Under the pieces are notes generated by a model. It searched no databases and was not told the origin of the DNA. It worked only from the letters and a program-made list of their open reading frames with translations. DNA of 64,000 nt from an uncultured bacterium (GTDB taxonomy: Bacteria > Cyanobacteriota > Vampirovibrionia > Gastranaerophilales > Gastranaerophilaceae). Of this stretch, positions 22,932-59,901 are shown one piece after another. The stretch's first letter is position 1. Each line of letters begins with the position of its first letter. Both the position numbers and the translations under genes were made by a program. The stretch covers positions 1 to 64,000 of the forward strand of contig CASFPN010000015.1 in NCBI GenBank assembly GCA_949296425.1, read 5' to 3'.

Positions 22932-23887
22932 ATGGAACTAAATATTAAAAATTGTAAACTCGGGGGGGGGGCACTGTAGGCTCCGCCGGAGGCAAAAAAG
23001 CTAAGAGGCATAGATGCGAAGCTAGTTTAGAAGTTAAGAAGATAAGAAGATATGAAGATAGGCTATTAACAGCAACTACCTCCTTCCTTCCCTTATTATG
23101 GAAGGATAAGAGGATTGGTAACAATCAATACCCACCCCAACCCTCCCGAATCAGGGAAAGAGTATCCTGTCATTGCGAGGGTGCTACGCACGTAGATCTG
23201 CCGGTCAGTCAACGCAAATACGCTTTTACCCTTGCAGAAGTTCTCATTACCCTTGGCATCATAGGTGTTATTGCGGCTATAACGATTCCTGTTTTGGTTG
23301 AAAGTTACCGTGAAAAAGCTCTGGAAACAGGCTTGGAAAGATTTTATTCCGTAATGAATCAGGCTTTTTATCATTCGAGACTTGATAACGGAGATGAAGA
23401 ATATTGGGAAGATTTTGGAGATAACTCTTGTGCGTATTTTAAAAAATACCTTTTACCATATTTAAAAAATATTGAATATGAATGCGGATATTATAATAAA
23501 GTTGCCGATTTGAAAAATCCTTCCAAAGTTGATGATGAGAGATTTGTAGGTATATATTTTGCATCCGGTGATATGGCTGTTTTTTCCTATGGCAAATATT
23601 TTACTTATACAAATAAGAAAAAGTATTATAAGGTTTATCCTGAATTTATGAGTAGTAGTCCAAATGATAGTTCGGATTTATACGGCAGTGAGCTATTCGT
23701 TTTTAAGATAGCTAAAAATTGTGCGTCTAATGCAAAAGTCGGTGGAATAGTTCCGCTTAATGATTCGTTTATGTATTCTGATAAACAGCTATTAGAAATT
23801 TGTAAACTTCATTCTCGTCAATGTTCTACAATCATTGTTCGCAACGGTTGGAAAATTCCGGATAATTATCCTTATAGGATAAAATAG
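22932..23887 (+). CDS. Prepilin-like secreted protein behind leader and G10 tract (locus 1, frame off)
   Basis: ATG 22932 follows GGAAAGGA, which is unusually far (about eight to ten bases). As written it gives MELNIKNCKLGGGAL and stops at TAG 22979. The prepilin frame is one base out: it is open from TAA at 22955, has no ATG, GTG or TTG before TTG 23294, and that TTG lies at the end of the pilin hydrophobic segment, so it cannot be the start. One added G (or two lost) joins both parts into 318 residues: leader, Gly run, 84 filler codons partly made of dispersed repeats, then RKYAFTLAEVLITLGIIGVI (23216-23275) with the Glu5-type prepilin helix, then a Cys-containing globular domain (LEICKLHSRQCSTIIVRNGW). 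Probably surface-exposed through a type IV pilus or pseudopilus route. Confidence 0.75.
22962..22971 (+). repeat. G10 homopolymer at the leader-prepilin junction (locus 1)
   Basis: Ten G in CTC-G10-CACTG, in codons 11-14 of the leader ORF. Such tracts are slippage-prone in replication and transcription. G11 or G8 would open the prepilin frame; G10 closes it. Confidence 0.9.
23181..23194 (+). repeat. Short dispersed repeat GTGCTACGCACGTA, copy 1
   Basis: The 14-base unit also occurs at 37268-37281 and 49205-49218. It contains the arms GTGC-TAC-GCAC. In locus 1 and locus 2 it is translated as GATHV just before the prepilin signal; the next about 30 bases are also similar between the two loci (CAGTCAACGCAAAT). 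Confidence 0.85.
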
Positions 23888-27083: not shown

Positions 27084-27419
27084 ATGACATTAGACATTAA
27101 CAAAACCAATCAAAATCACCAGGTGAGGGGGGGGATGGACCAAAAACAGGCTAAAATGTACCTTGTTAAAGCTGGTGATACTTTAACAAGTATTGCAAAA
27201 CGTTTTGGAGTCTCTGTTAAGGATATTTTGAAAGTAAACCCGGATATTAAGGACGCAAATAAAATTATGGCCGGAGAAGTTATAAGAATGCCGGCAAAGG
27301 CAGAACTTAATCCTAATCATATAAATATATTTGATACGGTCGATAAGAATAATCCTAAGCTAAATATGGCTTTGCAATTGAATATGACGACAAAAGAAAA
27401 TCCAGGTTTTAAAAATTAA
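27084..27419 (+). CDS. LysM-domain protein with in-frame G8 tract
   Basis: 111 residues from ATG 27084, with AAAGGAG upstream. Residues 1-14 are MTLDINKTNQNHQV, then a G8 tract encodes RGG, then MDQKQAKMYLVKAGDTLTS. One LysM domain follows (about 25-70: YLVKAGDTLTSIAKRFGVSVKDILKVNP, IMAGEVIRMP), which binds peptidoglycan or other GlcNAc polymers; a polar tail ends the chain. No signal peptide. With G8 the gene is in frame; G7 or G9 would stop it early, though the in-frame ATG at 27135 sits directly after the G run, which could act as its ribosome-binding site. So slippage would alter only the first 17 residues or the expression level. Confidence 0.85.
   Translation: MTLDINKTNQNHQVRGGMDQKQAKMYLVKAGDTLTSIAKRFGVSVKDILKVNPDIKDANKIMAGEVIRMPAKAELNPNHINIFDTVDKNNPKLNMALQLNMTTKENPGFKN
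27127..27134 (+). repeat. G8 homopolymer in the LysM gene
   Basis: Eight G in GTGA-G8-ATGG, codons 15-17 of the LysM gene. In frame as written. It is shorter than the G10 tracts but of the same kind and also near the start of the gene. Confidence 0.9.
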
Positions 27420-49033: not shown

Positions 49034-49884
49034 ATGTTGAATGTAAAGAAATGTGAACTCGGGGGGGGGGCACTCCTGAGCTAGGCAGAAGTCAAGAGGT
49101 CAAGAAGTCAAGCTATTTAAATCTCGTAAGATACTATGTCACTAAGGCACTAAGAAGTATCGTAAAAATTTTTCCTCTCTCGGGAGAGGAACTAAGGAAG
49201 AGGGGTGCTACGCACGTAGTCCTACCGACCAGTCAACGCAAATGCGCGTTTACATTGGCAGAAGTTCTCATCACCCTCGGCATCATCGGCGTGGTTGCAG
49301 CGATGACTCTGCCTGTTTTGATTACAAAGCATCGTGCTCAGGTTTTACAGACTCAATTTAAGAAGTGTTATTCCGAGGTCTCTCAGGCTCTTGCTCAGTT
49401 AAAAAAAGAGGATGAATATTTGTCGATTACTAACGGCCCTGAATTGCAGGATTTTTTGGTAAAACAGTTTAAGGAGGCTAAAGCTCCTGATCGTTTAATT
49501 TATTCGCAAACACCTGAAAAGCAGAAAGAATTAATCGGTTTTGAACTACCTGTTTATAAATCGTTCGACAAGAAAAATGAATTTTATAAACGAGCGCTTG
49601 ACGACGGGTTTATATTTATAAATAATGAATATTTTGTTTTTATTAATGCAGATTATTCTAGTATTTCGGATGCTGCAATAATAATTGATGTTAACGGACT
49701 TAATGGCCCTAATGTAGCCGGTTATGATTTATTTGCTTTTAAATTGGATGAAAATTTTAATTTGCGTTCTCAAGATAAAAATTCTCTTACCTGCACTGAA
49801 ACATTTCCAGGAGATCATAACGGTTTTTCCTGCAGTTATAATGCTATGACTGATAAAGATTATTTTAAAAATTTGGGCTGGTAA
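49034..49884 (+). CDS. Prepilin-like secreted protein behind leader and G10 tract (locus 2, frame off)
   Basis: AAGGAGG and ATG 49034 start MLNVKKCELGGGALLS, which stops at TAG 49084. The leader lies 14 bases after secA and has no promoter of its own that I can see. The prepilin frame is one base out; a TGA at 49054 closes it upstream and its first own start is TTG 49255 inside the pilin segment (FT|LAEV), so no independent start exists. One added G gives 283 residues: leader, Gly run, 59 filler codons, SQRKCAFTLAEVLITLGIIG, VVAAMTLP, then a domain with CTETFPGDHNGFSCSYNAM near the end, two Cys likely bonded as in the siblings. Prepilin peptidase would cut before the F of AFTLAEV; the long N-terminus is odd for a prepilin leader. 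Confidence 0.75.
49061..49070 (+). repeat. G10 homopolymer at the leader-prepilin junction (locus 2)
   Basis: Ten G in CTC-G10-CACTC, codons 10-13 of the leader. Same length, same surroundings and same register error as in loci 1 and 3. Confidence 0.9.
49205..49218 (+). repeat. Short dispersed repeat GTGCTACGCACGTA, copy 3
   Basis: Identical to copies at 23181 and 37268. Translated as part of GATHV in the prepilin frame, 10 codons before the AFTLAEV signal. Confidence 0.85.
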
Positions 49885-58693: not shown

Positions 58694-58760
58694 TTATTTT
58701 TTCTCCTTATTCAAATTGATTATATATGAAAGATTGATTTTATACAACTTTATTAATGAC

Positions 58761-58789
58761 TTGCATATTGTCTGAATATATTTTATACT
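58761..58789 (+). promoter_or_regulatory. Promoter of the third poly-G prepilin locus
   Basis: TTGCAT (58761-58766), 17 bases, TATACT (58784-58789). RNA would start near 58796, downstream of the ATG at 58756, so that ATG would not be in the transcript. Confidence 0.65.
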
Positions 58790-58828
58790 TGAAACGTCAC
58801 TTATTTAAAAGAAAGGAGAAGCAAAAAT

Positions 58829-59901
58829 ATGGAAAAGATGTTAGAAAATCAGGTCTTCGGGGGGGGGGCACTCGCCGCTTAAGTTTCTTTCCCATCGCCT
58901 TTTGTGAGAGGGAGCAGTTGGGTGAACAAATTGAACTTACAACTGCTGGTGAGAGTCTTTTACAGGTCAAGAAGACAGTTTTTGTCATCCTGAACTTGTT
59001 TCAGGATCTAAAAAGGAGATTACGAAAATGTACTTCCCTCTCCCGGGAGAGGGTGGAGAAGGAAATATTCGCAAATCCCAAACTAACTCATCTACGTGAA
59101 AAACAGGCTGAGTTCACTCTTGTAAAAAAGTCAAAAGTATGTCATAATAGTGATATGATACATCTCAATAATAACTTCGATTTACGTTTCACTCCTCACC
59201 CTTCACTAAAGAAGAAAGCCGCGTTTACACTTGCTGAAGTCTTAATCACTCTCGGCATTATAGGTGTGGTTGCGGCCATGACTATTCCTGCAATAATATC
59301 AAAATATCAGCATAAAGCATTGGAATCTGCGTTTAAAAAGTCATATTCCAATCTAATGCAGGCAATGGTGTATGCAGAACCTGAATTAATATCTGATATT
59401 ACAGGCAGTGGAGTTGTTACTGGTGATTCTGAATTTTATAATAAGTTATGGGAAAGATATAAAATAATTGAAGATTTAACAGCACATAACAAATTTAATA
59501 TGGTGAATGTGTATTCTCAAGGAGTTAAAACTTATAATAAAAAGGCTGATGCAGATACTGCTTGTCCTCAGCTGCCTAATTTAGTTGTTTCTGACGGTTC
59601 ATCAGTCGGCGGAATGTTCAATTGTGCAGGAAACTGGGTGGTCATTGATACAAACGGTCCATATAAAAAACCTAATGCTGTGGGACATGATATTTTCTAT
59701 TTCGCGGTTGACTCAAAGACAAAACGTTTATTCCCTTTAGGTTCAAGTATAGTTTCAGGCTACTGGAATTTTAGCAATCAGGAGCAGTATTGTTCCATTG
59801 ATTCTTCTAATGCACGAAATGGTTATGCTTGTACAGCTTTTGCTCTTTCAAATAAATGTCCTGATGATGAATCAAAAACATATTGGGAATGTCTGCCATA
59901 A
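58829..59901 (+). CDS. Prepilin-like secreted protein behind leader and G10 tract (locus 3, frame off)
   Basis: AAAGGAG and ATG 58829 start MEKMLENQVFGGGALAA, stopping at TAA 58882. The prepilin frame is one base out. It could formally start at ATG 58756, but this has no Shine-Dalgarno site and lies before the predicted RNA start. One added G gives 357 residues: leader, Gly run, 118 filler codons that include FVILNLFQDLK (the well-known translation of the GTCATCCTGAAC palindrome) and two stretches of the TCCCTCTC...GAGAGGG kind, then LKKKAAFTLAEVLITLGIIG and VVAAMTIP, then a 200-residue domain with four Cys (TACPQLPN-, FNCAGNW, QYCSIDS, YACTAF and CPDDE-type sites). Probably exported through a type IV pilus/pseudopilus machine. 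Confidence 0.75.
58859..58868 (+). repeat. G10 homopolymer at the leader-prepilin junction (locus 3)
   Basis: Ten G in TTC-G10-CACTC, codons 11-14 of the leader; same register error as loci 1 and 2. Confidence 0.9.
58984..59008 (+). repeat. Palindromic dispersed repeat inside the locus 3 filler
   Basis: GTCATCCTGAAC then TTGTTTCAGGATC; ATCCTGAA and TTCAGGAT form the arms. The same family as 26014 and 33307, but here read in frame (VILNLFQDL) without stop. Confidence 0.8.

Follow-up and report, generated by a model that had tools for sequence, protein, structure and literature searches.

Ten-guanine runs and a one-base frame offset at prepilin genes of Gastranaerophilales: a candidate default-OFF phase-variation system

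The 64,000-nucleotide window analysed here derives from an uncultured member of the Gastranaerophilaceae (GCA_949296425.1, contig CASFPN010000015.1, positions 1 to 64,000 of the forward strand) and lies on contig 15 of a 2.0 Mb genome that is 99.95% complete. It contains three loci at which a short leader, introduced by a Shine-Dalgarno (SD) sequence and an ATG codon, reads into a run of ten guanines (G10) and terminates, followed one base out of register by the frame of a type IV prepilin-like gene. The arrangement recurs throughout the genome and the genus, and it probably reflects default-OFF, DNA-level phase variation of pilins, a reading of the sequences that leaves the locking of run length and the replication polarity of the runs unexplained. 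Such a system would give the Gastranaerophilales, a gut lineage that has received little study, a very large set of phase-switched pilins, and no published account of one in this lineage was found in the openly licensed literature searched.

The genome harbours 90 G runs of at least 9 bases, with lengths of 10 (74 runs), 11 (7), 9 (5) and 12 (4). It has 97 matches to the prepilin-motif family PF07963, and approximately 60 prepilins are preceded by a short SD-ATG leader with G10 or its cytosine counterpart, C10. Runs of at least 9 number between 1 and 151 per genome in the same-genus genomes first searched, against 0 to 6 in other families of the order, and within the genus 22 of 23 genomes counted have G10 at more than half of them. 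The named relatives that carry the element are metagenome-assembled genomes (MAGs) of Candidatus Gastranaerophilales and Melainabacteria.

Locus 3 and the run across prepilin loci

At locus 3 (Table 1), ten in-frame codons separate ATG 58829 from the G10 run and the leader stop falls just past the run. The filler that connects the run to the prepilin core is free of stops in the prepilin frame, against 7 and 11 stops in the other two frames. The original prediction had described this leader, the run, the one-base offset and a 118-codon filler, all of which were confirmed at base level; loci 1 and 2 match locus 3 in run length and offset, as it had also claimed. The promoter that it placed here was not recovered: in a sigma-70 scan, no site on the plus strand from 58700 to 58829 reached the threshold. 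G10 and the +1 offset are also conserved in orthologues from genomes G008 (89% identity, filler of 202 codons) and G021 (68%, 52 codons). For the G021 orthologue the +1 offset depends on an ATG preceded by no better than a GGGAAG-type SD, and the automatic leader rule selected a different ATG.

The sole Pfam match of the locus 3 prepilin is PF07963, at 24.3 bits (cut-off 21.2), which assigns the protein to the prepilin N_methyl family and not to the LPXTG/sortase pilins. Its N terminus resembles Geopilin and PilA chains in a profile match, and the predicted structure (predicted local distance difference test score 74) consists of a long helix at residues 3–62 plus strands and sheet. The protein combines the N-terminal methylation motif of type IV prepilins with their long hydrophobic helix and beta domain, as predicted. 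The short leader ending in glycine that also typifies these proteins is missing at locus 3: residue −1 is alanine, and fusion would give a leader of about 132 amino acids, with processing by PilD only putative. A whole-fold search of the PDB with the locus 3 pilin returned no confident or significant match.

The comparison of loci embraces 209 cases from several species, including orthologues from other species fetched by similarity to locus 3; the sister species G002 was set apart by design, and leaders were selected automatically as the best SD-ATG. The run is exactly 10 bases long at 191 of the 209 loci (91%) and differs at 18, lengths of 9 and 11 being about equally rare (9 and 7 loci); these are MAG consensus lengths, which mask population variation. 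An SD-ATG leader was found at 201 loci, and fusion of leader and prepilin would require one additional base at 174 of them, two at 15 and none at 12. As loci within a genome are paralogues, these counts are not independent; single-linkage clustering by flank similarity, which lessens the dependence only partly, gives 51 clusters, 41 of which need one base, five two and five none. The same +1 offset is produced by several phase and frame anatomies. The common mechanism with a fixed default that had been proposed from the three loci of the window is supported by the offset at both levels of counting and across these anatomies, and its companion argument also holds: random phase variation would leave about one third of loci on, and the 12 in frame fall far below that proportion. 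As at contingency loci, a long homopolymer lies inside a reading frame that its length sets, and the genes concerned encode surface structures, namely PF07963 prepilins, PseF-like and glycosyltransferase genes.

Across the 209 loci, the 9451 filler codons include 4 stops when read in the pilin frame, compared with 738 and 797 when read in the other two; all 4 sit at a single locus, L186, which is probably a misassigned pair. At 147 of the 209 loci the filler lacks an in-frame ATG, and going upstream from the run, the pilin frame as assembled meets a stop after a median of about four codons. Open fillers, the scarcity of in-frame ATGs and closure of the frame just upstream of the run make translation from leader to pilin across the run likely; a run read as 11 would bring the two frames into register. 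On the evidence of its stop codons the open filler is under selection, and reading through the run matters. Internal re-initiation within the filler was rejected: no SD-start is present at 178 of the 209 loci, and the filler stays open all the way up to the run.

The fillers (58870–59223 and others) are intergenic-type repeats (e.g. GTCATCCTGAACTTGTTTCAGGATCT) that are open in the pilin frame. Contigs C3, C5, C17, C21, C27, C29, C31, C42 and C45 of genome G000 end approximately 200 bases or less from a G run, probably because the fillers are repeats. One pilin locus of the same genome (L074, contig C44, about 75.9–76.0 kb) contains two runs, a leader G10 and a filler G11. L009, L013 and L019, closely related copies of another prepilin-like gene (YTLSEIIIVMLIIS), are in three different frame states.

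In contrast, the sister species G002 combines near-identical leaders with run lengths of 8–16, and of its 74 runs of at least 9, just 12 have exactly 10 bases. Fusion would take two bases at 15 of its 22 loci and one base at 2, the other 5 being in frame as they stand. G002 also lacks the flanking motif and the strand rule described below. Its spread of lengths suggests, as the most direct sign in the sequences, that run length changes at the level of DNA. With no lock, strand rule or motif, this species is a natural contrast within the genus for the question of whether flank and fork direction set homopolymer stability.

Replication polarity and the flanking motif

In genome G000 all 47 pairs of adjacent C-Gn-C runs on a contig share the strand that carries the guanines; the strand of the pilin gene changes in 14 of 34 pairs. 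In the tested regions of G000, G004, G014 and G007, the G strand of the run is the G-rich strand by third-codon-position skew, measured on genes of both strands: genes on the G-rich strand carry G10 and genes on the opposite strand C10. Third-position skew was used because dnaA, tried as an origin marker, lies off the strand switch in G007; overall GC skew proved too weak in the window. The G-rich strand is taken as the leading strand, which is established practice and here an assumption. On that footing the G strand of the run appears to be the leading strand whatever the direction of the gene, which is unexpected; by the same skew the rule is absent from G002.

The run is embedded in a bipartite motif of about 21 bp, C-G10-CA-N6-AGC, in which AGC most often starts 8 bases past the run. 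AGC is present at +4 to +13 in 96 of 133 G-type runs, 44 of 55 C-type runs and 19 of 33 other C-Gn-C runs, some of the last being pilin loci cut by contig ends; the corresponding shuffle means are 15.3, 3.6 and 3.5. Among runs without flanking cytosines the AGC motif is found in 0 of 12. A single genome has as many as 77 copies of the full pattern, whose reversed control has 0 matches in this genus; G002, G006, G009 and G042 have none. Within the window the AGC part is present at locus 2 and absent at loci 1 and 3. Genome G057, from another genus of the family, has 15 pattern matches with a different middle (e.g. CACGCGCGTAGAGC), perhaps a separate element family.

The C-G10-C element also lies in or beside non-pilin genes (L029, L055, L073 and L120), including glycosyltransferases in frame with a run of 10, a downstream PseF-like cytidylyltransferase and a 440-amino-acid open frame. 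Mobile-element insertion at such genes was rejected on one case: a glycosyltransferase paralogue of G014 without the run has a stretch of similar length and no sign of a 25-bp insert. Neither the leading-strand rule nor the flanking motif belongs to ordinary phase variation, and together they argue for a process at the DNA level rather than one confined to RNA or the ribosome.

Known systems and competing readings

The closest precedent appears to be the pilus G tracts of Bifidobacterium. In Bifidobacterium breve UCC2003, sortase-pilus switches reside at bbr_0113 and bbr_1889, and the bbr_1889 run is 93.4% G10 (OFF) and 6.5% G9 (ON) (PMC9187656). Both systems belong to gut commensals, and in both a G run splits a secretion leader from a pilin, with a default state one base out of frame and fusion only after slippage. 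B. breve has two such loci, LPXTG/sortase pili and switching ON by base loss, whereas here dozens of type IV-like prepilins would turn ON by base gain, with uniform runs of 10, replication polarity and a flanking motif. Campylobacter is alike in that run length sets the frame of surface genes, glycan genes included, and each strain has 5–81 phase-variable genes at its contingency loci (PMC6321876, PMC4965091). Its poly-G runs are 53% at 9 and 26% at 10 (PMC6321876), in contrast to 91% at 10, a predicted ON length of 11, 29% poly-C according to replication strand and a conserved flank in the present case: length spread, ON length and coding-strand base all differ, and no flank effect is described there (PMC6321876, PMC4965091). 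Uniform length, uniform offset, replication polarity and a bipartite motif are not predicted by slippage as described for Campylobacter.

Under default-OFF phase variation, the SD-ATG leader would read into ten Gs, or ten Cs if the gene is opposite, and then meet its stop; replication slippage that lengthens the run to G11 (every length of 2 modulo 3 would serve) would fuse it through the filler to the prepilin, yielding a type IV prepilin-like surface protein. Any one cell would express a few of its approximately 60 pilins, ten would be the length at which the run rests, owing to insertion/deletion bias or to a motif-reading factor, and the role would be surface variation in the gut. Anatomy, filler selection, the +1 offset, the length of 10, the strand rule, the motif and the variation in G002 are read from the sequence; from these we infer the DNA-level change, its rate, the resting length and the biological role. 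The reading explains the open fillers, G002 and the glycan genes. Several observations weigh against it. Length is far more uniform than in Campylobacter; MutS is present, and MutS-family genes occur in 39 of 39 genomes, which also led to rejection of mismatch-repair loss as the cause of instability; and since lengths 9 and 11 are about equally rare, the 174:15 excess of +1 over +2 is unexplained by plain slippage. Taken alone, DNA phase variation leaves the peak at 10, the +1 excess, the strand rule and the motif unexplained. It is conceivable, although a tentative proposal, that a dedicated replication-coupled factor recognises C-G10-CA-N6-AGC in the template of the lagging strand and keeps the run from leaving a length of ten, a regulated length-setting machine in place of passive slippage; dozens of pilin genes would then be parked exactly one base short of expression.

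Programmed RNA-level slippage, a live though rather unlikely alternative, would keep the DNA fixed at 10 and have RNA polymerase add a base or the ribosome slip back by one, giving steady low expression of every pilin. Its model is the programmed transcriptional slippage of Thermus dnaX (A9) and of insertion sequence elements at A/T runs (PMC1088944), where likewise a homopolymer with a fixed offset fuses two frames. A conserved slippery run with one fixed offset is what the loci display, and near-fixed length together with the preference for +1 over +2, which persists after clustering, fits this explanation. In contrast to Thermus and the insertion sequences, however, the runs are G/C and their base follows the replication strand, so that messenger RNA carries G10 or C10 instead of a constant base and context, and the motif is oriented to replication and not to the gene. 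G002, with its runs of 8–16 and its prevailing need for two bases, and the occurrence of the same element in genes already in frame at 10 also speak against it. RNA slippage accommodates offset and uniform length; the strand rule and motif need an added constraint of DNA stability.

An improbable proposal is that the element chiefly serves recombination, replication or repair as a DNA site, recognised by a protein when it lies on the template of the lagging strand, with the frame effect secondary and the pilins perhaps recombining as in antigenic variation. Replication polarity, the bipartite motif, the length lock and occurrence outside pilins would suit such a site, but from the open fillers and the conserved +1 offset it is clear that read-through matters. 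Very little probability attaches to sequencing or assembly undercalls of true G11 runs, an artefact that the original prediction had listed as an option: the B. breve authors do report annotated G lengths unlike those of the population (PMC9187656), but here the same length and offset recur in independently assembled MAGs of several projects, G10 prevails in nearly all same-genus genomes counted, G002 assembles at its varied lengths, and other genes are in frame at 10. Equally slight is the chance that locus 3 is translated in the pilin frame from ATG 58756. The frame is open from that codon through 59901, but the ATG has no SD, as had been noted earlier; in the G008 and G021 orthologues a stop interrupts the pilin frame a few codons ahead of the run, and the pattern is common to many loci without such an ATG.

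Features of the window

Table 1. Positions of the three prepilin loci in the window
Feature	Position	Strand	Basis or remark
Locus 1 leader, G10 at 22962–22971, one base short	22932–22979	+	Sequence
Locus 1 prepilin core	23225–23887	+	Sequence
Locus 2 leader, G10 at 49061–49070, AGC at +8, one base short	49034–49084	+	Sequence
Locus 2 prepilin core	49249–49884	+	Sequence
Locus 3 alternative ATG, pilin frame, without SD, probably unused	58756–58758	+	Sequence and orthologues
Locus 3 SD, AAAGGAG	58812–58818	+	Read directly from sequence
Locus 3 leader frame, MEKMLENQVFGGGALAA, then stop	58829–58882	+	ATG 58829, TAA ending 58882, 17 amino acids
Locus 3 G10 run (putative switch)	58859–58868	+	CTTC before, CACTC after; +1 base fuses leader and prepilin
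Locus 3 filler, prepilin frame, 118 stop-free codons	58870–59223	+	Sequence, stop statistics
Locus 3 prepilin core, FTLAEVLITLGIIG..., 225 amino acids, FTLAEV at 59224	59224–59901	+	PF07963, predicted fold

Overlapping G8 matches in the window number 10, against 0.22 expected, and Rfam matches there are confined to ribosomal RNA. A LysM-like protein with its start at ATG 27084 has an in-frame G8 (27127–27134) close to the N terminus and may be encoded by another tract gene.
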